Origin: Gammaproteobacteria bacterium
GTDB lineage: Bacteria; Pseudomonadota; Gammaproteobacteria; S012-40
Direction of reading: 5' to 3'
Assembly (NCBI GenBank): GCA_919902765.1
Contig: CAKKRP010000040.1
Coordinates: forward strand, 1-43,051
DNA: 43,051 nucleotides
In this document: positions 1,102 to 27,341 of the stretch, one piece after another
How positions within the stretch are numbered: position 1 is the stretch's first letter
Layout of the letters: each line of letters opens with the position of its first letter
Position numbers and translations under genes: made by a program
Notes under the pieces: model-generated
Seen by the model: only the letters and a program-made list of their open reading frames with translations
Told to the model about the DNA's origin: nothing
Databases searched by the model: none

Positions 1102-1587
1102 ATGAGCAACAAAATCGATCACCCGTTACACTCCGATGTCACTTTAGACGTGTCCGGACTTACCTGCCCCGGCCCTATGGTGTCGGCAAAGCGTTTATTA
1201 GACGATTTAGCGGACGGGCAAACACTGTTGTTGATTTCAGATTGCGCGGGCACGCACGATGATCTCGCCGCATGGGCCAAACATACGCGCCATCAGTTAT
1301 TACATATGGAAAATATCGGCGAGAAAAAGGTCGCTTACTATATACAAAAAGGCGATCCATGGCCGGTCAATGTCAGCCTCGATACCGTCGGCACACGCTG
1401 CCCTGGCCCGGTGATCGAGGCTGCGCACCTGCTGAGAGGGCTAAAAAAAGGCGAGATACTGAAACTCGTCAGCAATTGCGAAAGCGCGCTAAAAGATGTT
1501 ACCTCGTGGTCTAGCGCCACCGGGCACGCGCTACTCGGCACCCGTCGCGACCCCAACGGGGTGATGAGTTTTTATATTAAGGCTTAA
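1102..1587 (+). CDS. Tandem TusA/SirA-domain sulfurtransferase-like protein
   Basis: A 161-aa cytoplasmic protein made of two TusA (SirA/YedF) domains in tandem. Each keeps the CPxP signature with its sulfur-carrying cysteine: LTCPGPM at Cys22 and TRCPGPV at Cys100. TusA proteins carry persulfide sulfur for tRNA thiolation, cofactor synthesis or, in sulfur oxidisers, sulfane-sulfur trafficking. ATG 1102 is chosen because GGAGG at 1090-1094 lies seven bases before it; the ATG at 1096 is too close. A typical TusA is about 80 aa with one domain, so this is a duplicated form. It lies 205 bases upstream of the MoxR/VWA/DsrS-like genes on the same strand, which hints at a shared sulfur-related role. 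That link is inference. Confidence 0.85.
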   Translation: MSNKIDHPLHSDVTLDVSGLTCPGPMVSAKRLLDDLADGQTLLLISDCAGTHDDLAAWAKHTRHQLLHMENIGEKKVAYYIQKGDPWPVNVSLDTVGTRCPGPVIEAAHLLRGLKKGEILKLVSNCESALKDVTSWSSATGHALLGTRRDPNGVMSFYIKA

Positions 1588-1792
1588 ATCGTCGTCAGCG
1601 CGCATCTTGCCATATTGAATAATAACATATTTTATGTCGGCGTGGCGCTACATGTACGACGCGGGCACTATCGTTTGGGATATAGGCGTATCTCTCAACT
1701 GGGTATAGGATAGTCCTTCATGTGCGGCCCATAACCCACTTCTGCGCCGGTGAGTGCCGCACAAGTCAACCCACGTCTTGCAGGAATGACGC

Positions 1793-2839
1793 ATGCGCAC
1801 GAGTGAAGTTTACGCAGTGCTCAATCAAGAATTTTTGAGCGCGGAATCCGGACAACATACGCCCGTGATGTTGTGGGGTCCACCCGGCATCGGTAAATCG
1901 CAATTAGTCGCACAAGTCGCCGCGCAACACGATGTCACGATGATAGACATACGTCTCTCGCAAATGGAACCCACCGATCTGCGCGGCATCCCGTTTCGCA
2001 GCGAAAACCGCGTCGAATGGGCCATCCCTGCGATGCTGCCCGACGCAACACGGCATGGCGCGCGCGGAATATTATTTTTAGACGAAATCACCTCCGCGCC
2101 ACCGAGCGTTTCCGCCGCCGCATATCAATTGATTTTGGATAGATCTCTAGGCGAATATGCCATCCCCGAAGGCTGGGCGATATTCGCCGCAGGCAATCGC
2201 CAAGGTGATCGCGGCGTGACTTACACCATGCCCGCGCCACTGGCCAATAGATTTTCGCATTACGAAGTAGAGCCTCACTTAGATGACTGGGTCGCGTGGG
2301 CCTTTGCACATAATGTAGACGAACGCTTAATCGGATTTCTGCGTTTTCGCCCGGAATTATTGTTCGAATTCGATGCGCAACGCAACCCCATCGCGTTTCC
2401 AAGTCCGCGCTCTTGGGAGTTTGCGGGCCGCGCCTTGAGCAAATTCGACGGCCGACCGCGCTTGATGTTGGGCGGTTTACAGGCCTGTGTCGGTGCCGCA
2501 CCGGGATTGGAATTACACGCCTATGTGGAGAGTGTCACGCGCATGCCCGATGTGCATGCCATTGCGCGCGGCGAATGCCAAGATGTACCGGAGGAATTGG
2601 ATTTACAATATGCAGTAGCATCCGCGCTGGTCGCGCAGGCGATACGCGTCAAGAAAAAACCCGAAGAAAATTCCACGCTGGATTTTATTCTCGCCTATGC
2701 CGCATTATTTCCGCAGCGCGAAATGGGCGTGATGCTGGTATCCGATCTACATCGCGCAATGGGCGCCGGTGTCACTCAAGCGGCGAATTTCAAACCTTGG
2801 GCGCGCCAAGTGTTGGACTTGATGTTCGATCATGCCTAA
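1793..2839 (+). CDS. MoxR-family AAA+ ATPase
   Basis: A 348-aa AAA+ ATPase of the MoxR class. Walker A is GPPGIGKS at residues 29-36, Walker B is ILFLDE at 93-98, followed by a sensor region and a C-terminal lid domain. MoxR ATPases work as rings with a von Willebrand factor A (VWA) partner to insert cofactors or remodel enzymes; CbbQ/CbbO, NorQ/NorD and BchI/BchD are known pairs. The next gene encodes just such a VWA protein and overlaps this one by 8 bases, so the two are probably translationally coupled and act together. AGGA at 1782-1785 gives a ribosome site seven bases before the ATG. The client enzyme is unknown. Confidence 0.88.
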   Translation: MRTSEVYAVLNQEFLSAESGQHTPVMLWGPPGIGKSQLVAQVAAQHDVTMIDIRLSQMEPTDLRGIPFRSENRVEWAIPAMLPDATRHGARGILFLDEITSAPPSVSAAAYQLILDRSLGEYAIPEGWAIFAAGNRQGDRGVTYTMPAPLANRFSHYEVEPHLDDWVAWAFAHNVDERLIGFLRFRPELLFEFDAQRNPIAFPSPRSWEFAGRALSKFDGRPRLMLGGLQACVGAAPGLELHAYVESVTRMPDVHAIARGECQDVPEELDLQYAVASALVAQAIRVKKKPEENSTLDFILAYAALFPQREMGVMLVSDLHRAMGAGVTQAANFKPWARQVLDLMFDHA

Positions 2840-3995
2840 CGACACCGGCCACGCCGCCAATCAACTCAGCAAGGCGCGCACGCGTTTGATTTTAGACAAA
2901 CCGTTTCTCGGCGCGTTGGTGTTGCGCCTGCCGTTGGTGGCGGCGGACCCGCAATATTGCCCCACGGTCGCCACCGATGCGCGTAATTTTTATTTTAATC
3001 CCGAATACATCGCCGGGATGAACATCAAACAAATGCAATTCGTGTTGGCGCATGAGGCCTTGCACTGCGCACTCACACACTTCGCGCGGCGTGGCCATCG
3101 CGACCGCCAGCGCTGGGACATCGCCTGCGATTATGCGATCAACGGCATTTTAGTCGATGAAGGCATGTCGCCCTGCCCCGGCGCGTTGGTCGAGGCCGGT
3201 TTTCGCGGCCTGAGCGCCGAAGAAATTTACCCCTCCATCGTCGAAAATCCCGACCAAGAAACGCAGGATGGGCATTGGTACGACAATGAACCGAGGCCTT
3301 CCAGCGCCGACGAAAAAGACCATAACGGCGAGACCAAACAACCGCCGCCACTGAATAATCAACAACGCGATGAATTAAAACAGCAATGGCAACAGCGCTT
3401 AGCCTCGGCACTACAATCCGCGCAACACGCCGGAAAACTGGGCGCGCACCTAGCGCGCATCGCCGAGCGGCTGATCCAACCCGCGTTGCCGTGGCAAGCC
3501 GTGCTTGCGCGTTATATCAACAGCCTGGCGCGTGCCGATTATTCCTTTACGCGACCCTCCAGCCGCCGCGAAGGCCCGGCCTTATATCCCACCTTATGCA
3601 GCCACAGCATTAACATCGTCGCCGCTGTGGACACCAGCGGCTCGGTGAACACCAAAGACCTCGCGCAGTTTACTTCCGAATTGAATAGTCTACGCGCGCA
3701 AGTGCATGGGCGCGTCACGCTCATCGCGTGTGATAGCGAACTCGCACCAGGGTCGCCGTGGATTTACGAACCGTGGCAGGATTTGGAATTGCCCAAACAT
3801 TGGAAAGGCGGCGGCGGCACCAGTTTCATGCCGGTTTTCGATTGGGCTGCGACGCAAGACCTGTCCCCCGATATCTTGATCTATTTTACCGATGGAAAAG
3901 GCGCGTTTCCAAAACACGCGCCGCTTTATCCTGTGCTATGGTTAATTAAGGGTAACGCCAAGGTGCCGTGGGGCGAGCGTTTGGCATTGAATTGA
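2832..3995 (+). CDS. Metallopeptidase-like / VWA-domain protein (DUF2201 type), MoxR partner
   Basis: A 387-aa protein with an N-terminal putative metallopeptidase domain and a C-terminal VWA-like domain. The zinc-type motif HEALH lies at residues 74-78. A charged, proline/glutamine-rich linker occupies about residues 140-185. The VWA-like domain carries the MIDAS motif DTSGS at 267-271 and later FTDGKG. This architecture matches the DUF2201/COG3864 group, usually encoded beside a MoxR ATPase. The expected role is target recognition or a chaperone-like adaptor for the ATPase, in the cytoplasm; no signal peptide is seen. It overlaps the ATPase gene by 8 bases and is followed seven bases later by the DsrS-like gene. 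Confidence 0.85.
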   Translation: MPNDTGHAANQLSKARTRLILDKPFLGALVLRLPLVAADPQYCPTVATDARNFYFNPEYIAGMNIKQMQFVLAHEALHCALTHFARRGHRDRQRWDIACDYAINGILVDEGMSPCPGALVEAGFRGLSAEEIYPSIVENPDQETQDGHWYDNEPRPSSADEKDHNGETKQPPPLNNQQRDELKQQWQQRLASALQSAQHAGKLGAHLARIAERLIQPALPWQAVLARYINSLARADYSFTRPSSRREGPALYPTLCSHSINIVAAVDTSGSVNTKDLAQFTSELNSLRAQVHGRVTLIACDSELAPGSPWIYEPWQDLELPKHWKGGGGTSFMPVFDWAATQDLSPDILIYFTDGKGAFPKHAPLYPVLWLIKGNAKVPWGERLALN

Positions 3996-4002
3996 GAGTA
4001 TC

Positions 4003-5076
4003 ATGATAGAACTTTCGCACGCAGATGAATTACGCCTCAGCATTATGTTCACGGAGCCGTTATATGCCGTGCGCATAGACGAAAACCGCATGATCTTGCA
4101 CGCGCTGTTGGAGCGCGGCGAGATCAATTTTCCGCTCAGCCCCAACTGTCAAACCGCGCGCTACCTCAAACAAGTGCGCGAATATCTGTCCAGCCATGCG
4201 CTAGGCTCCCCCGGCGGTTATCCGGTGTTTTTGCAACGCTGGGCGCGCATGGGCCAAATACGCGGTGAAACCTTGGCGGGTTTGTTGTGCATAGGCGAAC
4301 CCGAGGCCGTAGTCGCCGCCGCGCACGTACCTGCGCTGACATTGGAACTCGCGCGTCGCGTGTGGTGGGCGTCTCCGACGGCCGAAATTGCGCGTCAATT
4401 ATTGCGCCGGCCGGATTTTGTGCCCGCCGATTTAGGCCACACACTCGCGCAGTTTTTACTCGATGCCTTGCCGTTTGAACAAGAATCGAAATTGGTGGTG
4501 GAAAGTGTCGCCTTGTTGTTACAACCCGGTTTATTGTCTGACGACGCGCGCGCAATTTTGTGGCGCGGCGCGCAACGTCACGCGGGATATTTGACCGGCT
4601 TTATTAAAGGCGCGCCGGATGATATTCCGGCCCAAGCCTCGGCACATCCCGAACATGCGCATGTAATATTCAAGATCAATGCATCGAATTTACATCATAA
4701 TCATTATGCGCGCCTCGTTGCACGCGTGATGAGCGTAGCGGGACAAAATTTTTTGATCGAACTGGAACGCGCCATCAAGAGCGTCGCCGATCAAGACACG
4801 GTAATATTATTATTCGAGGCCATCGCGGAATATTTTTCAAACGGATCGCAAACCAAAAACAGCGACGACGCGACATCATGCCTGACCCGCTGCCCGGAAC
4901 TGGCACCCATTATTGCCGCGATCAAATCGCTAGAGACCTACAATTCCAACAGCTTAAATGACATCTTAGGCCGCACCGACGCGGTGGGGTCGGTCATGCG
5001 CAAAAAATTGACCTCGCTCACCGCCCCCTTGCTCACACATTTACACGCATTGCGCGCGGTACCTATCCATGGATGA
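4003..5076 (+). CDS. dsrS: DsrS-like protein (sulfur-oxidation-associated)
   Basis: A 357-aa, mostly alpha-helical soluble protein without signal peptide or membrane segment. Several stretches, for example LGSPGGYPVFLQRW and IGEPEAVVAA, fit what I recall of DsrS, the last gene of the dsr sulfur-oxidation cluster of purple sulfur bacteria. DsrS is a cytoplasmic protein of unknown biochemistry. The name rests on recalled sequence, not on a search. It lies seven bases after the VWA gene and overlaps the next gene by 8 bases, so all four genes probably form one transcript. No other dsr gene is in the window. If the DsrS match fails, this is an unknown helical protein encoded with a MoxR/VWA pair. 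Confidence 0.6.
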   Translation: MIELSHADELRLSIMFTEPLYAVRIDENRMILHALLERGEINFPLSPNCQTARYLKQVREYLSSHALGSPGGYPVFLQRWARMGQIRGETLAGLLCIGEPEAVVAAAHVPALTLELARRVWWASPTAEIARQLLRRPDFVPADLGHTLAQFLLDALPFEQESKLVVESVALLLQPGLLSDDARAILWRGAQRHAGYLTGFIKGAPDDIPAQASAHPEHAHVIFKINASNLHHNHYARLVARVMSVAGQNFLIELERAIKSVADQDTVILLFEAIAEYFSNGSQTKNSDDATSCLTRCPELAPIIAAIKSLETYNSNSLNDILGRTDAVGSVMRKKLTSLTAPLLTHLHALRAVPIHG

Positions 5077-5503
5077 ACACGCTTATCGCGCCATCCATCG
5101 CGACGCCAATCCGGTGCGTTGCGTCTTCGCCAAAACCATATTGAGCGCGCGTTTTCGCTGTGGCGCAGCGCAAAAAATGTTACTCGCCGAACGCGAGACC
5201 GTCGCCTGCATAGACAACGGCACGCGTGAATTATGTCAGCAATTATTGGAATTGTTCGCCGAAAAATCACGCTTCGCCTTGCGGCGCATGGACGAAGCGC
5301 CGTTAACGCACGGCCAGACGATGCGAATACAAATCGGCGGATTGACGGCAGTGAAAAATCTATCTAACGCGCCACAGGAAAATGGCGATGACGTACGCTG
5401 TATCGTCAAACAAATACGTCAGCAATTTCACGACTTTGAGTCGTTGCCGTTTGACGTGATTATGCGGGAGATTGTGCATATACAGTGGCGGGGGAAAAAA
5501 TAA
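5069..5503 (+). CDS. Unrecognised 144-aa protein, last gene of the MoxR/VWA/DsrS-like operon
   Basis: I do not recognise the family. The protein is small, basic and soluble, with spaced cysteines (near residues 17, 30, 49 and 58), a conserved-looking IQIGGL segment in the middle and another Cys near residue 111. It has no signal peptide or membrane helix. The ATG overlaps the end of the DsrS-like gene by 8 bases, which supports it being real and coupled. The N-terminal cysteines could bind metal or carry sulfur, but this is only suggested by their spacing and by the neighbours. It ends the operon; the next 440 bases hold no convincing gene. Confidence 0.7.
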   Translation: MDEHAYRAIHRDANPVRCVFAKTILSARFRCGAAQKMLLAERETVACIDNGTRELCQQLLELFAEKSRFALRRMDEAPLTHGQTMRIQIGGLTAVKNLSNAPQENGDDVRCIVKQIRQQFHDFESLPFDVIMREIVHIQWRGKK

Positions 5504-5944: not shown

Positions 5945-6397
5945 GTGTACCGTGGCGTCAATACTCTAACGCTAGATGACAAAGGACGGCTTACGCTGCC
6001 GTCACGCTATCGTCAGCGTCTACAAGAAGATTGCCAAGGGCAGGTGGTGGTCACGGTCGATCGTGACTTGTGCCTGCTGATATACCCTTTTGGAGAATGG
6101 GAAGAAATCGAACGCAAATTGGTCAAGCTGCCAAGCTTGAACCCGCAGGCACGCCAGCTTCAACGCTTGTTGATCGGGCATGCCACCGAGGTTGAACTGG
6201 ACAGTCACAGCCGTTTGCTATTGCCGCCGCCGTTGCGCGAGTTTGCCAAACTAGACCGTCAAGTGGTCTTGATCGGCCAGGGCAATAAGTTCGAGTTGTG
6301 GGATGAGAGTTTGTGGAATACCCGGCGTCAAGCCTGGTTGGCGGAGGGGGATGATGGGCAGTGGCTCGCAGATGGATTGGATAAGCTCTCTCTATAA
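5945..6397 (+). CDS. mraZ: Transcriptional regulator MraZ
   Basis: A 150-aa DNA-binding regulator with two SpoVT/AbrB-like (MraZ) domains, one at each end. The N-terminus YRGVNTLTLDDKGRLTLPSRYR has the DxKGR signature, and SHSRLLLPPPLRE is the second domain. It represses the dcw operon by binding the TGGGN repeats just upstream. The start is a GTG at 5945, chosen because the N-terminus then lines up with the family start (M-[FY]-RG). Length fits the usual 143-152 aa. It is followed by rsmH after two bases. Confidence 0.95.
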   Translation: MYRGVNTLTLDDKGRLTLPSRYRQRLQEDCQGQVVVTVDRDLCLLIYPFGEWEEIERKLVKLPSLNPQARQLQRLLIGHATEVELDSHSRLLLPPPLREFAKLDRQVVLIGQGNKFELWDESLWNTRRQAWLAEGDDGQWLADGLDKLSL

Positions 6398-6399
6398 CC

Positions 6400-7335
6400 A
6401 TGACAGCAGTGGAATTACACACACCGGTCCTACTCGATGAGGCACTGGCGGCACTAAATCTTACGCCCGCAGGCATTTATATCGATGCCACTTTCGGGCG
6501 CGGCGGGCATAGCCTGGCCATGTTGCGGCACTTGGGTACCCACGGGCGCGTCTATGCGTTCGATAAGGATCCAGAGGCCGTACGTCACGCACACAATATG
6601 TTCGCGGATGAACCGCGTTTTACCATACGTCATGGGTCGTATGTACAACTAGAACAGTTTGCGAGGGCCTGGGGCATTATGGCTCGGGTACAAGGTATAT
6701 TAATGGACTTGGGCGTATCGTCTCCGCAGCTCGACACCCCTGAACGCGGCTTCAGTTTCCGCGATGAGGGACCCCTCGATATGCGCATGGATACCACGCA
6801 GGGCGAAAGCGCCGCTACGTGGCTGGCGCGCGCCAGCGAGGCGGACATTGCCTATGTGCTCAAAGAATATGGCGAGGAACGCTACGCCAAACGCATTGCG
6901 CGCGCCATTGTAAACGCCCGCGTGCAAACCCCTTTTACGACCACTCGCCAATTGGCCGAGGTGGTGGCGGCGGCCAATCCGGCCTGGGAACGCCACAAGG
7001 ATCCATCGACCCGCGCCTTTCAGGGCATACGCATCTTTATTAATAACGAGCTGGCCGATCTCGACCAGGCCTTACCCCAGGCGCTGAATGTGTTGGCACC
7101 GTCAGGCCGTCTGGTGGTGATCAGTTTTCATTCACTGGAAGATCGAATCGTGAAAAATTTTATGCGTGACGAGGCCAAGGGCGATGATCTGCCGCCGGAC
7201 TTTCCGATACGCGCAGCCGAGTTGCACGCGCGCATGCGCTTGGTCGGTAAGGCGGTCAAGCCGTCGGATGACGAGATCCGCGCCAACCCGCGCGCGCGTA
7301 GCGCGGTGTTGCGTGTCGCGGCGCGTCTGTCATGA
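6400..7335 (+). CDS. rsmH: 16S rRNA (cytosine(1402)-N4)-methyltransferase RsmH
   Basis: SAM-dependent methyltransferase (also called MraW), 311 aa, that makes N4-methylcytidine at position 1402 in the decoding centre of 16S rRNA. Visible signatures are HTPVLLDEAL at the N-terminus, the SAM-binding DATFGRGGHS near residue 28, MDLGVSSPQLD, and FISFHSLEDR-type sequence (VISFHSLEDRIVK) near the C-terminus. Length matches the E. coli enzyme (313 aa). It starts two bases after mraZ and overlaps ftsL by 4 bases (ATGA). Confidence 0.96.
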   Translation: MTAVELHTPVLLDEALAALNLTPAGIYIDATFGRGGHSLAMLRHLGTHGRVYAFDKDPEAVRHAHNMFADEPRFTIRHGSYVQLEQFARAWGIMARVQGILMDLGVSSPQLDTPERGFSFRDEGPLDMRMDTTQGESAATWLARASEADIAYVLKEYGEERYAKRIARAIVNARVQTPFTTTRQLAEVVAAANPAWERHKDPSTRAFQGIRIFINNELADLDQALPQALNVLAPSGRLVVISFHSLEDRIVKNFMRDEAKGDDLPPDFPIRAAELHARMRLVGKAVKPSDDEIRANPRARSAVLRVAARLS

Positions 7336-7646
7336 GCGCGACCGCCCACGCCGTTCACGAACAAATCGCGCCGCGTGCCTGGCGCATACGCATCCAATTG
7401 CGCTTGATTTTGGTGTTGGTGGTGGTGTCGGCCTTGGCGGTGATCTATACCAAACATTGGAATCGCAAATTATTCGTTGAATTGCAGGAGTTACAACATC
7501 AACGCGACCAACTCAATGTCGAGTGGGGGCAATTGCAACTCGAACAAAGCGCCTGGGCCACGCATATCCGCGTCGAACAGATTGCGCGCGAGCGTTTGGG
7601 CCTTATCCAACCGCCGCCGGATAAAGTGGTGGTGATACGCCCATGA
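7332..7646 (+). CDS. ftsL: Cell division protein FtsL
   Basis: A 104-aa bitopic inner-membrane protein: a short cytoplasmic N-terminus, one transmembrane helix (about residues 24-42, LRLILVLVVVSALAVIYTK) and a periplasmic coiled coil rich in Gln, Leu and Glu. FtsL joins FtsB and FtsQ in the divisome and helps activate FtsWI. FtsL is poorly conserved, so the call rests on size, topology and the invariant position between rsmH and ftsI. It overlaps both neighbours by ATGA. Confidence 0.92.
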   Translation: MSATAHAVHEQIAPRAWRIRIQLRLILVLVVVSALAVIYTKHWNRKLFVELQELQHQRDQLNVEWGQLQLEQSAWATHIRVEQIARERLGLIQPPPDKVVVIRP

Positions 7647-9358
7647 ACGCCCACACCCCCGACACGCAATGGCAGCGTCGCCTGACCTGGGTGACGCTGG
7701 GGTTGTGCGTGGCGGGCGCGGCGCTGGGGTGGCGCGCGTTTGATTTGCAGGTGTTGGACAAGACCTTTTTGCAGGCGCGCGGCGATGCGCGCCATTTGCG
7801 CGTGGTGCCGCTGCCCGCCCATCGTGGCAATATTGTGGATCGCCAAGGCGATATCTTGGCCGCCAGCACGCCGGTCGATTCGATCTGGGTCAACCCCGAA
7901 GATATCGACCTGGCCGATCCACACTGGACGCAACTCGCCCAATTTTTGAATCTGCCGCTAGCGCAGATCCACACCCATGTGCAAACCTATCACGACCGCA
8001 CATTTGTGTATTTGCGTCGTCACCTCGCGCCGGATCTAAAAGACCGGGTGATGGCGCTAAAATTGGCCGGTGTATATGCGCAACGCGAATACCGGCGTTT
8101 TTATCCGTCGGGCGAGATCGCAACCCAGGTGCTAGGTGTCACCGATGTCGATGATCGCGGCATCGAGGGTCTGGAACTCTCTTACGATAATATATTGCGT
8201 GGCACGCCAGGGGCGGAGCGCGTCGTCAAAGATCTGCTCGGCAAGGCCGTCGAACGCGTCGAACTGGTGCGCGAGGCCAATCCCGGCGCGCTGTTGACCT
8301 TGAGCATTGATCATCGCATCCAATATCTGGCCTACCGCGAACTCAAGGCGGCGGTGTTGCAACACCACGCCCAGGCCGGTAGCGCGGTGGTGTTGGATAC
8401 GCAGACCGGCGAGGTCTTGGCGATGGTCAACCTGCCCGCCTACAATCCCAATAATCGCCCTGAATATCGCAGCATGAATGCGCGCAATCGCGCCGTCACC
8501 GACGTGTTGGAACCGGGTTCTACGGTCAAACCCTTCGCGGTGATCACGGCCTTGACGCAACACGCCTATGCGCCGCAAACACTAATCGACACCCGCCCCG
8601 GCAGCCTGCAAATCGGTGGACGCACGATCCGCGACGTGCATAATTACGGCGTCATCAATGTCGCGCAGATCATTCAAAAATCCAGCAACGTCGGCATCGC
8701 CAAGATCGCGTTGTCGCTGCCCAAAGAGGCCTTGTGGCAGACCTATAACGACGCCGGTTTGGGCCGGGTGACCGACAGCGGTTTCCCCGGCGAGGCCAGC
8801 GGTCGCTTACCGCCGCATCGCTTGTGGCACACCATCGACCAGGCCTCGTTGTCGTTTGGTTATAGCATGGCGGTGACGCCGTTGCAGCTCGCCCATGCCT
8901 ACGTGGCGCTGGCCAATGACGGCCTGGCGATGCCGATCTCGTTTATCAAGCGCAATGTCCCGCCCGAGGGTTTTCGCGTGCTCGATGGCGCGGCGGTGCG
9001 CACAGTGCGCACGATGCTGGAAACCGTCGTCGAGGAAGACGGCACTGGCGTGCGTGCGCGCGTGCCCGGCTATCGCATCGCCGGCAAGACCGGCACCGTG
9101 CGCAAAGTCGGCGTGAACGGTTATATGGAAAATAAATATCTGTCGTTGTTCGCCGGGTTTGCGCCTGCCAGCCGCCCGCGTTTGGCGATGGTGGTGGTGG
9201 TCGATGAGCCAACCGGCGTGTATTACGGCGGCCAGGTCGCGGCCCCGGTGTTCAGCGCGGTGATGGCGGGTGCGTTACGCATGTTGGACGTGCCACCGGA
9301 CAATGCGCCGAGCGGCCCGTTGAAGGTCGCCCATTTGGCCGGGGTGGCAACCCCATGA
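7643..9358 (+). CDS. ftsI: Peptidoglycan transpeptidase FtsI (PBP3)
   Basis: Division-specific class B penicillin-binding protein, 571 aa, that cross-links septal peptidoglycan. It has an N-terminal membrane anchor (about residues 14-30), a dimerisation/pedestal domain beginning with RGNIVDRQG, and a transpeptidase domain. The active-site motifs are STVK (Ser293), SSN (347-349) and KTG (482-484). Length is close to E. coli FtsI (588 aa). It works with FtsW, encoded seven genes downstream in the same cluster, and overlaps ftsL and murE by 4 bases each. Confidence 0.96.
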   Translation: MNAHTPDTQWQRRLTWVTLGLCVAGAALGWRAFDLQVLDKTFLQARGDARHLRVVPLPAHRGNIVDRQGDILAASTPVDSIWVNPEDIDLADPHWTQLAQFLNLPLAQIHTHVQTYHDRTFVYLRRHLAPDLKDRVMALKLAGVYAQREYRRFYPSGEIATQVLGVTDVDDRGIEGLELSYDNILRGTPGAERVVKDLLGKAVERVELVREANPGALLTLSIDHRIQYLAYRELKAAVLQHHAQAGSAVVLDTQTGEVLAMVNLPAYNPNNRPEYRSMNARNRAVTDVLEPGSTVKPFAVITALTQHAYAPQTLIDTRPGSLQIGGRTIRDVHNYGVINVAQIIQKSSNVGIAKIALSLPKEALWQTYNDAGLGRVTDSGFPGEASGRLPPHRLWHTIDQASLSFGYSMAVTPLQLAHAYVALANDGLAMPISFIKRNVPPEGFRVLDGAAVRTVRTMLETVVEEDGTGVRARVPGYRIAGKTGTVRKVGVNGYMENKYLSLFAGFAPASRPRLAMVVVVDEPTGVYYGGQVAAPVFSAVMAGALRMLDVPPDNAPSGPLKVAHLAGVATP

Positions 9359-10866
9359 ACCTGAACGCCGCGCCGATCACCCCTGCCCCGCTGACCAAGC
9401 TCTTGGCCGGGCTGACGACGGTCGCGCCGGAACAGGATAGATTAATCAGCGGTCTGGCCTTGGATAGCCGCGAGGTCAAGGCGGGCGACGTGTTCTTCGC
9501 GCGTCTGGGCACGCAGCAAGACGGCGCGCGTTATATTGATTCCGCCATCGCCGCCGGGGCCATCGCCGTGGTCGCCGACAGTGATACCACCTTCACCGAC
9601 CCCAACGTGCCAACGTTTAGATTGGCGCATCTTGACGCCAAATTGGGCGAGATCGCCGCACGTTTCTACAATCATCCGGCGCGCGACCTGTGCGTGATCG
9701 GTATCACCGGCACCAATGGCAAGACCTCGTGCAGCCAGTTCACCGCGCAATTATTGAGCACGCCGACCTGCCCGACGGGCATCATCGGCACTGTCGGCAA
9801 CGGGGTGTTCGGTGCGTTGACCCACGGCGTACACACCACGCCGGACGCGCTGGCGCTGCAACTCTGGTTACACGCGTTCCGTGCGCATGGTATGCGTTAT
9901 GTCGCGATGGAGGTGTCGTCGCACGGTCTCGATCAAGGGCGAGTCAACGGCGTCGATTTCAGCGTCGCGGTATTGACCAATCTGAGCCGCGATCACCTGG
10001 ATTATCACGGCGATATGGAGAGTTATGCCGCCGCTAAGAGTTTGCTGTTTACCCGCCCCGGCCTGCGTTATGCGGTGCTCAACATGGATGATGAATTGGG
10101 TCAACGCTTGGCGACGACCCTGCCCGCCGAAGTACAAGGTGTGGGTTACAGCCTGGACGCCGACACCAAACTGCCGCGCGGCATGTTACACGTGGTGGTG
10201 AAAAAACTCAGCCTGTCCCCCGCCGGGATAGAGATGGACGTACTCAGCCCGTGGGGTGATCATCACCTGCACACCCATTTATTGGGCCGTTTCAATGCCT
10301 CGAACGTGTTGGCGGTATTGGCCACGGCCCTGGCCTTGGGCCTGCCGCTGGGCGAGGCGGTCGCGCGGGTCGCCACGCTACAAGCCCCGCCGGGGCGTAT
10401 GGAGTGTTTCGGCGGTGGCGCGGGACAGCCATTGGTCGTCGTGGATTACGCACATACCCCGGATGCCTTAGAACAGGTATTATCCACACTACGCGAACAT
10501 ACCACGGGCGATTTGTGGTGCGTGTTCGGGTGTGGCGGTGATCGTGACCGTGGTAAACGCCCGCAAATGGCGTCCGTCTGCGAACACTATGCGGATCGCG
10601 TGGTCATCACCGACGATAATCCGCGCCGCGAAGACCCGCAACAAATTATCCAAGACATCCTGGCTGGGTTAAAATATCCCAATCATGCCCAGGTGCAACG
10701 TGATCGCGCCCAGGCCATCGCGCAGGCCGTGACACAGGCGACGCCCGGCGATGTCATCTTGGTCGCGGGTAAAGGGCATGAGGATTATCAAATCATAGGC
10801 ACGCAACGCCGTCATTACAGCGACCGCGAGACCGTCGCACAACTGCTGGGGGTGACCCATGCGTGA
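9355..10866 (+). CDS. murE: UDP-MurNAc-tripeptide ligase MurE (meso-DAP adding)
   Basis: Cytoplasmic Mur ligase, 503 aa, that adds the third residue to UDP-MurNAc-L-Ala-D-Glu using ATP. The P-loop GTNGKTS starts at residue 119. DNPR at 421-424 is the motif tied to selection of meso-diaminopimelate rather than lysine, so a DAP-type wall is predicted. That agrees with lysA in this window, which uses meso-DAP for lysine. It overlaps ftsI by 4 bases and murF by 8. Confidence 0.96.
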   Translation: MNLNAAPITPAPLTKLLAGLTTVAPEQDRLISGLALDSREVKAGDVFFARLGTQQDGARYIDSAIAAGAIAVVADSDTTFTDPNVPTFRLAHLDAKLGEIAARFYNHPARDLCVIGITGTNGKTSCSQFTAQLLSTPTCPTGIIGTVGNGVFGALTHGVHTTPDALALQLWLHAFRAHGMRYVAMEVSSHGLDQGRVNGVDFSVAVLTNLSRDHLDYHGDMESYAAAKSLLFTRPGLRYAVLNMDDELGQRLATTLPAEVQGVGYSLDADTKLPRGMLHVVVKKLSLSPAGIEMDVLSPWGDHHLHTHLLGRFNASNVLAVLATALALGLPLGEAVARVATLQAPPGRMECFGGGAGQPLVVVDYAHTPDALEQVLSTLREHTTGDLWCVFGCGGDRDRGKRPQMASVCEHYADRVVITDDNPRREDPQQIIQDILAGLKYPNHAQVQRDRAQAIAQAVTQATPGDVILVAGKGHEDYQIIGTQRRHYSDRETVAQLLGVTHA

Positions 10867-12226
10867 GCAGCGCTTGTTGCGCGAATTCACGCTGGCGCAG
10901 GCCGCCGCTGTGCTGGGCATTGCGGCGCCCGCACGCGCGGTGACGTTTAGCGGCGTCAGCACCGACACCCGCACCTTGCAGGCCGGGGAATTGTTCGTCG
11001 CCTTGCGCGGACCCAATTTTGACGGCAACACCTACGTCGCCGCCGCCGCCGAACGCGGCGCGGTAGCCGCGCTGGTGGATCGCGCCGTGGACGCCGATAT
11101 CCCCACCCTGCAGGTCGCCGATACGCGGCTGGCCTTGGGGGCCTTGGGCGCAGCACGCCGCGCCGCCTATAAGTTCCCGGTCGTAGCGGTCACCGGCAGC
11201 AATGGCAAGACCTCGGTCAAAGAAATGATAGGCCACATCCTGCGCGAGGCGGGTGGCAATATCCTGGTCACCCAGGGCAATCTAAACAACGACTTGGGCG
11301 TACCGCAGATGTTGCTACGTCTAACCCAGCAACACACTGGCGCGGTGATCGAGATGGGCGCTAACCATCTCGGCGAAATCGACTATCTGACGCATTTGAC
11401 CAAACCCACAGTCGCCGTCATCAACAACGCCGACACCGCGCATCTGGAAGGCTTCGGAAGTTTAGACGGCGTGGCCAAGGCCAAGGGCGAGATTTACGGC
11501 GGCTTGGGCAAACAAGGTATCGCCATCATCAACGCTAACGATCATTATGCGGATTATTGGCACAAGCTGAATCGTCAACGCACGATAATGAGCTTCGGAA
11601 TAGGCGTCGGGGCGGATGTCGAGGCGCACGCAGTCCGTTTGACCGCCAGCGGCAGCCAATTTGAATTGCACACCCCACAAGGGGACGCGCCGGTACAAAT
11701 CCAATTGCTGGGCCAGCACAATGTGATGAACGCGTTGGCGGCCAGCACTGCGGCGCTAGCGACAGGCGCCAGTCTGAGCAATATCGTACATGGCTTGGCC
11801 TCGATGACGCCGGTCAAAGGCCGTTTGCAATCCAAACGCGCGCGCGATGGCGCGACCGTCATCGACGACACCTATAACGCCAACCCAGCCTCGTTGCGCG
11901 CCGGAATTCAAGTGTTAAAGGCCTGCGACGGCACGCGCATCTTGGTGCTGGGCGATATGGGCGAACTCGGCCCCGACAGCGCGCATCTGCACGCCGCTGC
12001 CGGTGACGAGGCACGCGCCGCAGGCATCGACAACTTATTTGCGGTCGGCAAACTCAGCGCGGCGGCGGTCACGCATTTCGGCGCGCAGGCCATGCACTTT
12101 GCCGACCAGCCCGGTTTGATCGCGGCGCTGGCCGCCGAACTAAAACCGGGCGTCACACTGTTGGTCAAAGGCTCGCGCAGCAGTCGTATGGAAAATGTCG
12201 TCGCCGCCTTGTTAGAAACCGCTTAG
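10859..12226 (+). CDS. murF: UDP-MurNAc-tripeptide:D-Ala-D-Ala ligase MurF
   Basis: Mur ligase, 455 aa, that attaches D-Ala-D-Ala to complete the UDP-MurNAc-pentapeptide. The ATP loop [10 protein letters not shown] lies near residues 117-126, followed by [10 protein letters not shown], which is typical of MurF, and IDDTYNANP in the C-terminal half. Length is standard (E. coli 452). It starts within the end of murE and is followed after 13 bases by mraY. Confidence 0.96.
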
Positions 12227-12239
12227 GGGAGAAACACGC

Positions 12240-13322
12240 GTGTTGTTGTATCTGACCGAATATTTAGCCAAATATTGGAGCGTATTTAATGTATTCCAAT
12301 ATTTGACCTTGCGCGCCATCTTAGGCGTGATCACGGCCTTGTTGATCGGGTTAATCGTCGGCCCCAAGATGATACGCAGTCTGACGGCGCGCCAAATCGG
12401 CCAACACATCCGCAAAGACGGCCCGCAGACGCATCATAAAAAAGCCGGTACGCCGACCATGGGCGGCGCGTTGATCTTGGTGTCTATCGTCATCGCCACC
12501 TTGTTGTGGTCAGATCTTTCGAATCGCTATATGTGGGTCACGGTCGGCGTGCTGGTCGCGTTCGGCATCATCGGCTATCTCGACGATTACATCAAATTGG
12601 TCAAAAAAGACCCCAAGGGATTAAGCGCGAAGGCCAAATACGGTTTGCAAACCATCGCCGGTTTAGCGACTGCGTTTTATTTGTTTCACAACGCCAGTCT
12701 GCCGGTCGAAACGACGCTTTATGTGCCGTTTTTTAAGACCATCGCGATCCCGTTGGACTGGTGGTATGTGCCGTTTGTGTATTTGGTCATCGTCGGTTCG
12801 AGCAACGCAGTGAATTTGACCGACGGCTTGGATGGCCTGGCGATTATGCCCACGGTGATGGTCGGCGGCGCCTTGGGTTTGATCGTTTATCTGGCCGGTA
12901 ATCGCGTGTTTGCGGAATATTTGGGCATACCGCACGTGCCGCACGTCGGCGATTTGGTGGTGTTTTGCGGATCTTTGGTCGGCGCGGGCCTGGCCTTTTT
13001 GTGGTTCAACACCTATCCGGCGCAGGTCTTCATGGGCGATATCGGCGCGCTGTCGTTGGGCGCGGCGCTGGGCGTGATCGCGGTGTTGGTGCGGCAAGAG
13101 TTGGTGCTGTTCATCATGGGCGGTGTGTTCGTGATGGAGGCGGTGTCGGTGATGATGCAAGTCGCGTCGTTCAAACTCACCGGCAAACGCATATTTAGAA
13201 TGGCCCCCATCCATCATCATTTTGAATTAAAAGGCTGGCCGGAACCACGCGTCATTGTGCGTTTTTGGATCATCACGGTGATCTTGGTGCTGGCCGGATT
13301 GGCGACGTTGAAACTGAGATAA
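12240..13322 (+). CDS. mraY: Phospho-MurNAc-pentapeptide transferase MraY
   Basis: Polytopic inner-membrane enzyme, 360 aa (the same as E. coli), that moves phospho-MurNAc-pentapeptide onto undecaprenyl phosphate to give lipid I. About ten hydrophobic helices are visible, with the family motifs [24 protein letters not shown] and the cytoplasmic HHHFE near residue 325. Start is the GTG at 12240, supported by a purine-rich AGGGGAGA just upstream and by the family-like N-terminus MLLYLTEYL. It sits between murF and murD. Confidence 0.96.
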
Positions 13323-13324
13323 AC

Positions 13325-14665
13325 ATGGCCCACGCGACACCCACATACGACAATCACATCATCGGTCTAGGCGCGACCGGGATGGCGGTGGCGCGCTTTT
13401 TGGCGCGGCGCGATGAATCGTTTGTGGTGTTTGACAGCCGCGCCGAACCGCCGCTGGCGGCGCAATTCGCGCGCGATTTTCCGCACACCGAATTGCATTG
13501 CGGCGTGTTTGACATTGCAGCGTTTGCACGCGCCAAACGCCTGATTGTCAGCCCCGGCGTGGCCTTGCGCGAACCGGCGATTCAACACGCGCTGGCCTTG
13601 GGCATCCCCGCCATCGGCGACATCGAATTATTCGCACAAACGGCGCGCGCGCCAGTCATCGCGATCACCGGCGCGAACGGCAAAAGCACCGTCACCACCT
13701 TGGTCGGCGACATGGCGCGTGACGCGGGTATGGACGTGCGTATCGGTGGAAACTTGGGCACACCGGCGTTGGATCTGCTGGGCGAATCTGAACCGCAACT
13801 CTATGTGCTGGAATTATCCAGCTTCCAATTGGAGACCACCGACACACTCGCGCCGCGCGCCGCCGTAGTACTGAATATCAGCGCCGATCACATGGATCGC
13901 TATGCCGATGTGGCGGAATATAGCGCCGCCAAGGCGCGCATTTATACGCATGCGCAAACGCGTATCGCCAATGCCGACGATGCCGTGGTGATGGCCATGG
14001 TCAAACATGACGCGGCATGCATCGCCTTCACGCTGCACACGCCGCGCGCGGACCAATACGGCATCATTGAGGCCGACGGTGCGCGTTGGTTGGCACGGGG
14101 CACACAACGCTTAATCAACGAACGCGAATTAAAAATCGCCGGGCGTCACAATACCGCAAACGCATTGGCGGCCTTGGCCTTGGGCAAGGTCGTGGGCTTG
14201 CGCGACGACGCGATGTGCCAGACCTTGCACCGTTTCGCGGGTTTGCCGCACCGCACGCAATGGGTCGCCGAACGCGATGGCGTGACCTGGTTTAACGATT
14301 CCAAAGGCACCAATGTCGGGGCCACCGTCGCGGCCTTACAAGGCATGCCCGGCAAGGTGGTGTTGATCGCCGGGGGCGATGGCAAGGGACAAGATTTTGC
14401 AGAATTGCGCCCTGCCCTGCAACAATTCGGTCGCGGCATCGTGTTGATCGGGCGTGACGCGTCATTGATCGCGCGCGCGGTCGGCGACGCCGTGCCCGTG
14501 CGCCCCGCGCACGACATGCGCGAGGCGGTGCAACAGGCACAACAACTCGCACAACGCGGCGATGTGGTGCTGTTGTCGCCGGCCTGCGCCAGTTTCGATA
14601 TGTACAAAGGCTACACCCACCGTGGCGAGGTCTTCGTCGAAGCTGTGCGGAGCTTGCTCGCATGA
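13325..14665 (+). CDS. murD: UDP-MurNAc-L-alanine:D-glutamate ligase MurD
   Basis: Mur ligase, 446 aa, that adds D-Glu to UDP-MurNAc-L-Ala in the cytoplasm. GLGATGMAVARFL is at the N-terminal UDP-binding domain, ITGANGKSTVTTL is the ATP loop (about residues 114-126), and NDSKGTNVGAT is the MurD signature. ATG 13325 comes two bases after the mraY stop; longer in-frame readings would lie inside mraY. Length is close to E. coli MurD (438). The stop overlaps the ftsW start (ATGA). Confidence 0.95.
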   Translation: MAHATPTYDNHIIGLGATGMAVARFLARRDESFVVFDSRAEPPLAAQFARDFPHTELHCGVFDIAAFARAKRLIVSPGVALREPAIQHALALGIPAIGDIELFAQTARAPVIAITGANGKSTVTTLVGDMARDAGMDVRIGGNLGTPALDLLGESEPQLYVLELSSFQLETTDTLAPRAAVVLNISADHMDRYADVAEYSAAKARIYTHAQTRIANADDAVVMAMVKHDAACIAFTLHTPRADQYGIIEADGARWLARGTQRLINERELKIAGRHNTANALAALALGKVVGLRDDAMCQTLHRFAGLPHRTQWVAERDGVTWFNDSKGTNVGATVAALQGMPGKVVLIAGGDGKGQDFAELRPALQQFGRGIVLIGRDASLIARAVGDAVPVRPAHDMREAVQQAQQLAQRGDVVLLSPACASFDMYKGYTHRGEVFVEAVRSLLA

Positions 14666-15876
14666 TGACGCGCGCCTTGAATCATATTCGCAATTTCAAC
14701 CACGCGGGAACGCGGTTGTCCGGCGTGTCCAACGACGCGTGGTTGAGCGGCATCGTCTTAGCGTTGCTGACGATAGGCGTGATCATGGTCGCCTCGGCCT
14801 CCATCACCACCGCCGACAAACAAACCACGCAACCGTTTTATTATTTGTGGCGTCAGGCGATGTTTATACTCGCCGGATTGGGGGGTGCCGCCATTGTGCG
14901 CCGCATACCGTTGGCGTGGTGGGAAAACGCCAGCCGCATGTTATTGGTCGCCGCCGTGGTAATGTTGGTGGTGGTGTTCATCCCCGGATTAGGACGCACC
15001 TTGAACGGCAGCACACGCTGGCTGGCGCTAGGGCCGATCAGTATCCAAGTCTCCGAGGCGGTGAAATTATGCACCATCGTGTTTCTAGCCGGATATCTTG
15101 CGCGCCATGACGAGGCCTTACGTACCTCGCTGGCGGCCTTGTGGCGACCTTTGGCGATATTGAGCGTGTTGGCCTTGTTGTTGTTGATCGAACCCGATCT
15201 CGGCGCGACGGTGATCATTTTCGGCAGCGCATTGATCATGTTGTTCATTGCGGGCACCCCGCTCAAATATTTTCTAAGTTTAGCGGCGGCGGTCATTGCG
15301 ATCTTCAGCGCCTTGGTGGTTACGTCGCCCTACAGATTAAAACGCATGATTTCTTTTTCGGACCCATGGGCCGATCCGTTTAACACCGGGTTTCAACTCA
15401 CCCAGGCCTTAATCGCGTTCGGACGCGGCGAATGGTGGGGCGTGGGTTTAGGTGGCAGCGTGCAGAAACTTTTTTATCTGCCCGAGGCCCATACCGATTT
15501 CATTTATGCCGTTTTAGCCGAGGAATTGGGCCTCATAGGCGCGTTGTCGGTGATCGTGTTGTTTGGATTATTGTGCTGGCGCGCGTTAGTGATCGGGCGT
15601 CGCGCACGCGAGGTGCAACAAGATTTCGCCGCCTATCTGGCGTGGGGCATAGGCGCCTGGTTGGGCCTGCAAGCGTTCATCAATATTGCGGTGAATATGG
15701 GACTTTTACCGACTAAGGGCCTGACCTTACCGTTTATCAGCTATGGTGGTTCCAGCGTGTTTATTTGTTTAATCGCCGTGGCCTTATTATTGCGCGTGGA
15801 TCGCGAGACGCAAGACGGCAGTGCGCAACAAGCCCAACAACGTCGCGGAGGTCCGTTATGGCGCCGCGCGTCTTGA
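14662..15876 (+). CDS. ftsW: Septal peptidoglycan glycosyltransferase FtsW
   Basis: SEDS-family polymerase, 404 aa, with about ten transmembrane helices, that makes septal glycan strands from lipid II with FtsI. Family motifs seen are the FIPGLGRTLNGSTRWL loop, EPDLGATV, EELGLIGA and the C-terminal LPFISYGGSS. It begins with a double ATG overlapping the murD stop; the first is used here. The end overlaps murG by 19 bases. Confidence 0.95.
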   Translation: MMTRALNHIRNFNHAGTRLSGVSNDAWLSGIVLALLTIGVIMVASASITTADKQTTQPFYYLWRQAMFILAGLGGAAIVRRIPLAWWENASRMLLVAAVVMLVVVFIPGLGRTLNGSTRWLALGPISIQVSEAVKLCTIVFLAGYLARHDEALRTSLAALWRPLAILSVLALLLLIEPDLGATVIIFGSALIMLFIAGTPLKYFLSLAAAVIAIFSALVVTSPYRLKRMISFSDPWADPFNTGFQLTQALIAFGRGEWWGVGLGGSVQKLFYLPEAHTDFIYAVLAEELGLIGALSVIVLFGLLCWRALVIGRRAREVQQDFAAYLAWGIGAWLGLQAFINIAVNMGLLPTKGLTLPFISYGGSSVFICLIAVALLLRVDRETQDGSAQQAQQRRGGPLWRRAS

Positions 15877-16931
15877 TTATGGCCGGGGGCACCGGCGGCC
15901 ATGTCTTCCCCGCCTTGGCAGTCGCGCTCGAATTGCAACAACGCGGCGCGACGGTGAGTTGGCTGGGCACGCAACGCGGTCTGGAGGCCGAGGTCATTCC
16001 CAAGGCCGGGATTGACATCGACTGGGTCACCATCGGCGGACTGCGCGGCAAGGGCCTGCTTGGTTGGTTGATGGCGCCGCTGCGTTTGTCACGCGCGATG
16101 GCGCAAACCTATCGCGTATTCCGCGTGCGCAAACCCTCGGTCGTGCTCGGCATGGGTGGATTTGTGACCGGCCCCGGCGGCCTGGTCGCGTGGCTATCCG
16201 GTACGCCCCTGGTCATCCACGAACAAAATGCGCTTCCCGGCATGACCAATCGTTGGCTGGCGCGCATTGCAACACGCGTTTTAACCGCGTTCCCGGTTGC
16301 CTTTGATCATCGCCAAACGCGCGATGTCGGCAATCCGATACGCAGCACGCTGACCCACCTGCCCGCGCCCGATCAACGTTTCGCTGGGCGCACGGAAGGC
16401 GCGTTGCATTTATTGGTCGTCGGCGGCAGCTTGGGTGCCAAGGCCTTAAACGATACCGTACCGGCCGCACTCGCACTTCTACCTGTTGTGCAGCGTCATC
16501 AAGTGTGGCACCAAACCGGAAAGAAAAATCTCGTAGCGGCGCAAGCTACCTATGCCCAGGCCGGAGTAGAGGGCCGCGTCGTGCCTTTTATCGACGACAT
16601 GGCCGAGGCCTATGCCTGGGCCGATTTAGTCATTTGTCGCGCCGGCGCGTTGACGATCTCTGAATTGGCCGCCGTCGGCGTGGGTGCGATCTTAGTGCCC
16701 TTCCCGCACGCGGTGGATGATCATCAAACCGTCAACGCAAAATATTTGGCCGATTGCGGTGCCGCACTACTCGTCCCGCAAACTCAATTGAGCGCGGAAA
16801 AATTGGCCGCGATGTTGCGCGATCTTAACCGCGAAAAATTACTCGCGATGGCGCGCAAGGCGCGGCACGTCGCGCGTCCCCATGCCACTGCACAGGTCGC
16901 CGATGTGTGTCAGGAGGTGGCGCGTGTTTGA
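15858..16931 (+). CDS. murG: UDP-GlcNAc:lipid I GlcNAc transferase MurG
   Basis: Peripheral membrane glycosyltransferase (GT28), 357 aa, that turns lipid I into lipid II. The glycine-rich [12 protein letters not shown] lies at residues 9-20, with VVGGSLGA and the donor-binding [10 protein letters not shown] region near the C-terminus. ATG 15858 is supported by GGAGG at 15847-15851 and the family N-terminus. It starts inside the end of ftsW, and its own end overlaps murC by 8 bases. Confidence 0.95.
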
Positions 16932-18378
16932 ACGCCTCGCCCACTACGGCCGCCGCGCCACCGATGCCAGCGGATTGGCGCGCACCAAACGCATCCACTT
17001 CGTCGGTATCGGCGGTGCGGGCATGGGCGGCATCGCCGAGGTGATGTTGAATCTGGGTTTTGAAATCACCGGCAGCGATTTGAGTGAAAACGCCGTGGTG
17101 CAACGCCTGCGTCAACTCGGCGCGCGCGTATCGGTGGGACACGCCGCAGAACATATTCCGGGGGCGGATGTCGTCGTCATTTCCAGCGCGGTGAAAGATA
17201 ATAATCCGGAAATCACCGAGGCGCGTCGCTTGCGCGTACCGGTGGTGCCGCGCGCCGTCATGCTCGCCGAATTAATGCGTTTCCGTTACGGTATCGCGGT
17301 CGCGGGCACCCACGGCAAAACCACGACCACCAGCCTGGTCGCCAGCGTATTGGCCGAGGGTGGATTAGACCCGACGTTTGTGATCGGCGGCCGCCTCAAC
17401 AGCGCAGGCGCTAACGCACGCTTAGGCGAAGGCCGTTTTTTAGTCGCCGAGGCCGACGAAAGCGATGCCTCGTTTTTATATTTATTACCCATGATGGCCA
17501 TCGTCACCAACATCGACGCCGATCATATGGAAACCTACGGCGGGGATTTTTCGCGGCTGAAAAACACGTTTATCGAATTCCTGCATCATCTGCCGTTTTA
17601 TGGCACCGCCGCGCTCTGCATAGACGACCCGGTGGTGCGCGAAATCCTGCCGCAAATCACGCGCCCGGTGCGCACCTACGGTTTTGCCGAAGATGCCGAT
17701 GTGCGCGCGCGCAACGTGACGCAAAGCGGTCAACGCACACAATTTCAAGTGTGGCGCAAAAACGCGCCGCAATGGCTGGATATCGAATTAAATCTACCCG
17801 GCAATCACAACGTGTTGAATGCCTTGGCGGCGGTGACTATCGCCGACGAATTGGAAGTCGCCGACAGCGCCATCCAACATGGTTTGGCGCAATTCAAGGG
17901 TGTGGGTCGACGCTTGCAACAATGCGGCGACATCGCGTTGGCGCAAGGCCATGCGATGCTGGTTGATGATTACGGCCACCACCCGCGCGAAGTCGCCGCG
18001 ACGCTGCAGGCCTTACGCGCCGGTTGGCCGGATAAACGCCTGGTCGTGGTGTTCCAACCGCATCGTTACACGCGCACGCGCGATTTGCTCGATGATTTTG
18101 CGCAGGTGTTGTCGCAAATCGACGTGTTATTGTTATTAGAAGTTTACGCCGCCGGAGAAGACCCCATCCCCGGTGCCGACGGCCGCGCCTTGGCACGCGC
18201 GATCCGCGCACGCGGCAAGATCGATCCGATTTTCGTGGCGACGCCCAACGAATTGTACGATGTGTTGCCCGATGTGGTGCGCGACGGCGATTTATTGCTG
18301 ACCTTGGGTGCGGGCAACGTCGGCACCATCGCGCCCAAACTGATCGAATCCGGCATTTCCAAACGGGGGCCTGCATGA
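16924..18378 (+). CDS. murC: UDP-MurNAc:L-alanine ligase MurC
   Basis: First Mur ligase of the pathway, 484 aa, which joins L-Ala to UDP-MurNAc. [17 protein letters not shown] is the N-terminal UDP-binding signature, [10 protein letters not shown] is the ATP loop, and [11 protein letters not shown] is a MurC hallmark. I chose GTG 16924 because AGGAGG at 16912-16917 sits six bases before it; ATGs further upstream lie deep inside murG and lack such a site. Length matches E. coli MurC (491). The stop overlaps the murB start. Confidence 0.94.
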
Positions 18379-19280
18379 TGGCGGCGTTTGACCTCAATAC
18401 CGGATTGCGCGGCGAATTGCTGGAACACGAACCGCTGGCCGATCACACCTCGTGGCGCGTCGGCGGCCCTGCGCAACGAATGTATAAACCGGCGGACATC
18501 GATGACTTAGCGCTGTTTTTGAGCCAACTCGACGCCGACGAACCGCTGTTATGGGTGGGCCTGGGCAGCAATTTATTGGTACGCGACGGCGGCGTGCGCG
18601 GCACGGTGATCTTGACCAGCGGCTTGTTAAACGGACTACACCTCGAAAATACGACCACGGTGCGTGCCGAGGCCGGTGTCGCCTGCAACAAGGTCGCGCG
18701 CTTTTGCGCCCAACATCACTTAGTGGGCGCGGAATTTCTGGCCGGCATCCCCGGCACGGTCGGCGGCGCATTGGCGATGAATGCGGGGGCCTTCGGCGGC
18801 GAGACATGGACATGGGTCAACCATGTTGAAACCATAGATCGCCACGGCGAACGCCGCGTGCGCACCCCTGCGGAGTATCAAATAAGTTATCGCGAAATTC
18901 ACGGCCCGCAAGGTGAATGGTTTGTCGCCGCACATTTCACATTGAACAGCGGCGACGGCGCGGCCGCGCAACAACGCATCAAGGGATTACTGGCCGAGCG
19001 CAATCGCAAACAGCCGACCGCGCAACCCAGTTGTGGCTCGGTGTTTCGCAACCCCACCGCCGATTACGCGGCGCGTCTGATCGAGGCCTGCGGACTAAAA
19101 GGCCAGTGCATAGGCGCGGCCTGCGTGTCGGAAAAACACGCCAATTTTATCGTCAACATGGGTGACGCGCGCGCCGCCGACATCGAGGCCTTGATCGCAA
19201 AAGTGCAGCACACTGTGGCGCAAACGCACGGCGTGCAATTGAAACCTGAAGTCCACATCGTGGGAGTACCGGCAGCATGA
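18375..19280 (+). CDS. murB: UDP-N-acetylenolpyruvoylglucosamine reductase MurB
   Basis: FAD-dependent reductase, 301 aa, that makes UDP-MurNAc. [23 protein letters not shown] and [19 protein letters not shown] are the flavin-binding signatures. [10 protein letters not shown] carries the catalytic serine region, and the protein ends in LKPEVHIVG with the conserved Glu. The length and layout fit type II MurB rather than the longer E. coli type. It overlaps murC and ddl by 4 bases each. Confidence 0.95.
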
Positions 19281-21003: not shown

Positions 21004-21010
21004 CCACGGC

Positions 21011-22252: not shown

Positions 22253-22290
22253 AACTGCGGTACAACCCCTCTCAAAAGGAGAAAAGCGTT

Positions 22291-23451: not shown

Positions 23452-23563
23452 GAGGGGGATATTGCGCAAGATCGACGCAATTTGCTGTGAGACTGGCTCT
23501 CCGGCGTCAGACGTGCATGGCGTGTTGCTGCGCAGTTTGACATGGTCTTCATCCCGATCCGCG

Positions 23564-23593
23564 ACGGACTTCACTTTCATGAGGAAAGTCCGT
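23564..23593 (+). other. Hairpin in the ftsZ-lpxC spacer
   Basis: ACGGACTT at 23564-23571 and AAGTCCGT at 23586-23593 form a perfect 8-bp stem around a 14-base loop. An alternative inner pairing CTTTC/GAAAG is possible. No T-run follows, so it is not a standard terminator; it may be a processing or partial-attenuation site after ftsZ. Confidence 0.5.
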
Positions 23594-23596
23594 GTG

Positions 23597-23625: not shown

Positions 23626-23643
23626 GAAGGCTTGGAGCCTCTA

Positions 23644-27329: not shown

Positions 27330-27341
27330 AAAGCACCCCGA

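Follow-up and report, generated by a model that had tools for sequence, protein, structure and literature searches.

MoxR-type AAA+ ATPases paired with von Willebrand factor A (VWA) proteins act on enzymes in the closest described systems. NorQD drives metal insertion into cytochrome c-dependent nitric oxide reductase (cNOR): a 'finger' of the VWA protein enters the AAA+ pore, the metal-ion-dependent adhesion site (MIDAS) touches the client and ATP hydrolysis permits metal insertion (PMC13036017, PMC9976466). CbbQO, which is associated with sulfur-oxidizing autotrophs, remodels Rubisco and requires the MIDAS for activation (PMC5437159). RavA-ViaA is a MoxR-VWA pair whose targets are respiratory enzymes, fumarate reductase among them (PMC10585395). 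Here we analyse a gene string in a 43,051-nucleotide stretch of gammaproteobacterial DNA (contig CAKKRP010000040.1 of assembly GCA_919902765.1; the whole stretch is referred to as the window). It comprises genes for a MoxR-type ATPase (1793..2839, + strand), a DUF2201-type VWA protein (2832..3995, +), a protein assigned to DsrS (4003..5076, +) and a small four-cysteine protein (5069..5503, +). The first three are termed the trio and all four the module.

Oxidative dissimilatory sulfite reductase (Dsr) metabolism is a major route of biological sulfur oxidation, and DsrS is a member of the textbook dsr operon. The function of DsrS in Allochromatium vinosum is stated to be unresolved (PMC3368242). 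The window family shares by synteny the dsrS position of the A. vinosum operon, dsrABEFHCMKLJOPNRS; unlike that operon, the window DsrS lies off the dsr contig, within the MoxR-VWA-DsrS-Cys gene string.

As in NorQ-NorD, the window MoxR AAA+ protein is accompanied by a neighbouring VWA protein, in which a variable linker joins an N-terminal domain to a C-terminal VWA domain with an intact MIDAS. The window pair differs in the lineage of the MoxR protein, in its smaller DUF2201 partner, in the additional DsrS and Cys proteins and in its linkage to dsr genes. The PDB sequences nearest to the window MoxR include NorQ, at no better than E 0.002, besides Midasin and AAA+ remodellers, and no nor genes were recognised near the trio. 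With CbbQ-CbbO the pair has in common the MoxR protein, the VWA/MIDAS adaptor and a frequent occurrence in sulfur-oxidizing proteobacteria, but the window partner is about half the size of CbbO and co-occurs with dsrA rather than RuBisCO; the window MoxR has no CbbQ_C match, and no Rubisco genes were found among the open reading frames near the trio. The likeness to RavA-ViaA lies in the MoxR-VWA pairing, the difference in domain make-up and neighbourhood.

Results

The distribution of the module was examined in 370 gammaproteobacterial genomes that are at least 90% complete. DsrS is carried by 106, MoxR by 104, the VWA protein by 110 and dsrA by 123. DsrS and MoxR occur together in 102 genomes, DsrS alone in 4, MoxR alone in 2 and neither in 262, giving a phi coefficient of 0.96; the corresponding value for DsrS and the VWA protein is 0.935. 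The set is nearly nested in the dsrA-positive genomes (DsrS and dsrA both in 100, DsrS alone in 6, dsrA alone in 23, neither in 241; phi 0.82). Of the six genomes in which DsrS occurs without dsrA, three possess dsrB, which is complete in one and interrupted by a contig end in the other two. By genome distribution the DsrS set thus belongs to the accessory genes of the reverse Dsr pathway, a much stronger link to sulfur oxidation than an earlier note on this DNA had claimed. DsrS and MoxR are both kept in 45 of the 102 genomes though unlinked or on different contigs, and MoxR was present in all 12 named genomes tested in which DsrS is unlinked, among them Thiohalobacter thiocyanaticus and the Escarpia endosymbiont. 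Of the four genomes that have DsrS but no intact MoxR, two carry a broken DsrS, truncated with an in-frame stop in G068 and split over three frames in G364. The only dsrA genome with MoxR but no DsrS, G072, has MoxR and the VWA protein as partial matches, together with the Cys protein.

The sampled genomes are related, which violates the independence assumed by Fisher tests, and many are metagenome assemblies. Because of this kinship, absences were also examined inside families. DsrS, MoxR and the VWA protein are jointly absent in some dsrA-keeping members of nine families. Where module-less loci could be followed past dsrP (n = 16), dsrN and dsrR were kept in 10 and dsrS was there in none. 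A reductive-type Dsr as the cause of the missing module was ruled out, as nearly all module-less loci have dsrEFH and most have the remaining oxidative set. Taken across genomes, the sequence comparisons show a real and strongly conserved association of DsrS, MoxR and the VWA protein in reverse-Dsr sulfur oxidizers.

Gene order is conserved as well. A search for DsrS homologues gave matches in 15 of 56 related genomes; in named genomes there were 497 matching places, of which the best 80 were examined. The titles of all 80 give gamma- or betaproteobacteria, or Proteobacteria/Pseudomonadota without further specification. About two thirds of these loci show the order MoxR-VWA-DsrS, a share that is higher if contig ends are allowed for. 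Of the 102 genomes in the 370-genome sample that have both, 57 carry MoxR within 6 kb of DsrS, on its upstream side and in the same orientation. An arrangement that recurs in most of the 80 named loci and in 57 of 370 genomes is not due to chance. In some genomes the trio is part of the dsr region itself: a single strand of G180 (L141) reads dsrA-B-E-F-H-C-M-K-L-J-O-P-N-R-moxR-vwa-dsrS, G054 (L030) has dsrL-J-O-P-N-R-moxR-vwa-dsrS, and in G091 (L138) moxR-vwa-dsrS stands immediately ahead of dsrA. Many trios are adjoined by cysG.

Other genes recur around the trio (e.g. in L031, L053, L109 and L144). Among about 110 loci, a Sel1-repeat gene lies just upstream of MoxR in 61 and a gene of about 178 residues without Pfam match just downstream of DsrS in 52; a gene of about 190 residues, also without Pfam match, is found around the trio in 51, and a DUF6866 protein in 49. 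The window copy of the latter (26286-27401) is 22 kb from its own trio. One locus (L130, G125:C42) reads MoxR-VWA-DsrS-178aa-cysG with a DsrC-like gene near. Beside dsrA, a Cas6-family gene (PF09559, 185 bits) and a TauD-like gene recur, often with a DsrC paralogue; the Cas6-family gene was seen in the source genome, upstream of dsrA (L121:4821-7625), and in L131, L133-L137 and L142-L145.

The assignment of the 357-residue protein to DsrS draws on synteny. In canonical dsr operons its homologues take the dsrS place in the string dsrN-dsrR-dsrS, and the family is therefore DsrS. In the Escarpia spicata endosymbiont (L113) the canonical string dsrF-H-C-M-K-L-J-O-P-N-R is closed by dsrS, L027 has dsrL-J-O-P-N-R followed by dsrS, and in L141 and L030 the gene likewise comes after dsrN-dsrR, with moxR and vwa between. 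The earlier note had called the protein DsrS and had made its case depend on that identity and on a neighbourhood conserved outside the source genome; synteny upholds the first and the recurrent trio the second. Profile hidden Markov models did not yield the call, since neither the window DsrS nor 14 homologues had a match in Pfam or NCBIfam. The AlphaFold2 model of DsrS (predicted local distance difference test, pLDDT, 88) has a short N-terminal beta region followed by an alpha-helical, ARM/HEAT-like repeat array. Compared with the PDB it gave nothing with E < 0.001; the best match (VIA Z 7.8) was to generic helical repeats only, and no DNA- or RNA-binding fold was found. With matches that were merely generic and none of them strong, reading a function of DsrS from its fold was dropped. 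The modelled helical-repeat fold would suit an adaptor and gives no hint of an enzyme.

The window genes are tightly arranged, with an 8-base overlap between MoxR and the VWA protein, a 7-base gap before DsrS and an 8-base overlap between DsrS and the Cys protein. These junctions, and the motifs on which the earlier note had remarked, are all present. The MoxR protein (348 residues) matches Pfam AAA_5 with 34.9 bits (cut-off 22), with AAA_3 below its cut-off, and contains Walker A (GPPGIGKS, 1877-1900), Walker B (LFLDEI, 2072-2089), AAGNRQGDRG and PLANRF. Across 74 aligned relatives its AAA+ motifs show little or no variation. The AAA_5 match, the conserved motifs and the adjacent VWA gene identify it as a MoxR AAA+ ATPase.

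The VWA protein (387 residues) matches DUF2201_N (157.6 bits) and DUF2201 (78.6 bits) in Pfam and has a C-terminal VWA domain. Its MIDAS is complete, formed by DTSGS (residues 267-271; 3630-3644), T330 (3819-3821) and D354 (3891-3893), and D267, S269, S271 and D354 are found in 78 of 78 relatives, T330 in 77. The protein also carries HEALHCALTH (3051-3080), with HEALH at residues 74-78. H78, C79 and H83 are invariant in the 78 relatives; H74 is replaced in 10 and E75 in 10, each being kept in 68. The HExxH catalytic pair expected of a DUF2201_N metallopeptidase is thus not conserved across the relatives, though HEALH is intact in the window. A role in antiphage defence was set aside, as a PADLOC search yielded only trace AAA+ matches.

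The Cys protein (144 residues) belongs to a family that is not in Pfam; it had no Pfam or NCBIfam match, and its relatives had no convincing one. Cysteines 18, 31, 47 and 56 are invariant in 22 aligned members. In a set of 257 genomes, whose membership of the 370-genome sample is inferred from handle numbers, 61 of 62 carriers of the Cys protein also have DsrS. The Cys protein thus belongs to the DsrS-MoxR-VWA set by the same distribution profile, as the earlier note had supposed when it grouped this protein with the operon. Homologues lie beside or within 5 kb of dsrS in few genomes (L027, L113, G317, G207) and mostly elsewhere. The model (pLDDT 91) had no PDB match with E < 0.001 (best VIA Z 3.3), a result that does not imply a novel fold.

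A tandem TusA gene (1102..1587, +; Pfam TusA PF01206, 117 bits in two stretches) lies 205 bases upstream of MoxR and has CPGP in both domains, as first described. The same description tied it to the operon, and this did not hold. At a trio locus of the same genus (L020) lgt takes the place of TusA, and TusA just upstream was seen in no other trio locus examined. The only other TusA among trio or DsrS loci is in L085, a DsrS locus without the trio, 8 kb from DsrS. With adjacency lost even within the genus and at all other trio loci, the tandem TusA was rejected as a module member and is probably no more than a neighbour.

Directly downstream of the module comes a gene cluster for division and the cell wall, mraZ-rsmH-fts/mur, that looks complete (5945-24555). 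In the source genome DsrS and the dsr operon are on separate contigs: at loci L121 and L122 (contigs C21 and C63) it carries dsrABEFHCMK, on a contig that ends in dsrK, and, by inspection only, an apparent TusA-DsrE2-LbpA-Hdr-type sulfur cluster. The source genome may therefore combine Dsr and sulfur-oxidizing Hdr-like (sHdr) routes.

Discussion

We propose, as the probable reading, that the module works as an AAA+ remodelling machine of the NorQD/CbbQO kind for the oxidative Dsr system, in which the helical-repeat DsrS is the client adaptor. MoxR would form an AAA+ ring plugged by the DUF2201 VWA protein, whose MIDAS site would be presented in the manner of NorD on NorQ. DsrS would serve as adaptor or scaffold, guiding the machine to a Dsr enzyme, and the Cys protein would be an accessory factor handling metal, Fe-S or sulfur. 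Through ATP-driven remodelling the machine would then assist in loading a cofactor into the enzyme, in restoring one there or in resetting the enzyme. As client, DsrAB with its sirohaem-[4Fe-4S] centre is our first guess, since the module shows linkage to dsrAB and, in many cases, to cysG, a gene of sirohaem synthesis; the DsrMKJOP complex would be the second. We infer complex formation, ATP-driven remodelling, the adaptor role and the client by analogy, and the term 'maturation or remodelling machine' likewise draws on knowledge of the family. A more specific version would see in the four proteins an AAA+ machine, the first one known, for maturing or repairing a sirohaem sulfite-reductase-type enzyme: it would load or restore the oxidative DsrAB sirohaem-[4Fe-4S] centre, and the Cys protein would donate the metal or cluster. 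This we hold tentatively, as a rather doubtful extension.

Several points weigh against the proposal. DsrS is missing from 23 of the 123 dsrA-positive genomes (19%), most of which, where inspected, have an otherwise full oxidative dsr set; the pathway can therefore run without the module, which is not universally required. Three module genomes (G125, G276, G292) gave no dsrAB, and G125 is rated 100% complete, yet has no dsrA or dsrB match. The joint absences within families soften the problem of kinship and are not a formal phylogenetic test. DsrS is identified by synteny, and no sequence ties the module to one particular client.

Other explanations can be set against the same data. The module might be regulatory, with DsrS and MoxR-VWA governing how Dsr proteins are made or turned over instead of loading cofactors. 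PMC11406059, citing Grimm 2010, reports that the neighbouring DsrR takes part in the regulation of sulfur oxidation, A. vinosum dsrS has its own promoter (PMC3368242), and the module is dispensable in some lineages. We nevertheless regard regulation as unlikely, since DsrS showed no DNA- or RNA-binding fold and MoxR-VWA pairs of known function remodel enzymes (PMC9976466, PMC5437159). A further suggestion, regulated proteolysis or quality control of Dsr proteins by a metalloprotease, takes its cue from the HEALH motif of the window protein and from the Pfam label of DUF2201_N as a putative metallopeptidase domain. It is weakened by the replacement of the HExxH His and Glu each in 10 of 78 relatives; the invariance of H78, C79 and H83 favours metal binding or structure over required catalysis, and this makes a protease very unlikely.

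The client might also lie outside the Dsr system. The module could serve an enzyme that merely coexists with reverse Dsr, for instance a sirohaem enzyme, assimilatory or of another kind, or the product of a conserved neighbour. This would agree with the presence of cysG beside many trios, with the module of G125, in which no dsrAB was detected, and with the other genes of no assigned function that recur nearby. The near-nesting in dsrA-positive genomes, and the trios inside dsr operons (G054, G180) or next to dsrA (G091), leave this quite improbable. Finally, MoxR-VWA could be a CbbQO-like RuBisCO activase or general autotrophy factor, linked to Dsr through the autotrophy of Dsr sulfur oxidizers. 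RuBisCO is indeed present in most module genomes and CbbQO is known from sulfur-oxidizing autotrophs (PMC5437159), but the MoxR protein matches no CbbQ_C model, the 387-residue VWA protein with its DUF2201_N domain is not CbbO-sized, and in place of Rubisco genes the neighbours are dsrS, cysG and dsr genes. G177 has the module without RuBisCO, G056 and G182 have it with no more than a weak RuBisCO-like match (E about 1e-22), and at least 15 dsrA-positive genomes have RuBisCO without the module. The RuBisCO reading was accordingly rejected, and an activase or general autotrophy factor is extremely improbable.

For the proposed remodelling machine the machine type is known, whereas the partner set and the pathway are new on the evidence of the open literature searched: no paper there mentions both DsrS and MoxR, and nothing relevant was found on DUF2201 with MoxR or on MoxR with dsrAB. 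In most genomes the module lies away from the dsr operon and was therefore overlooked in operon-based views. DsrS gains near-obligate partners, a MoxR ATPase and a VWA protein, in addition to a small Cys protein, and with them a testable role. If the genes act together, oxidative Dsr metabolism in most of the gammaproteobacteria that have it would rely on an undescribed ATP-driven helper.

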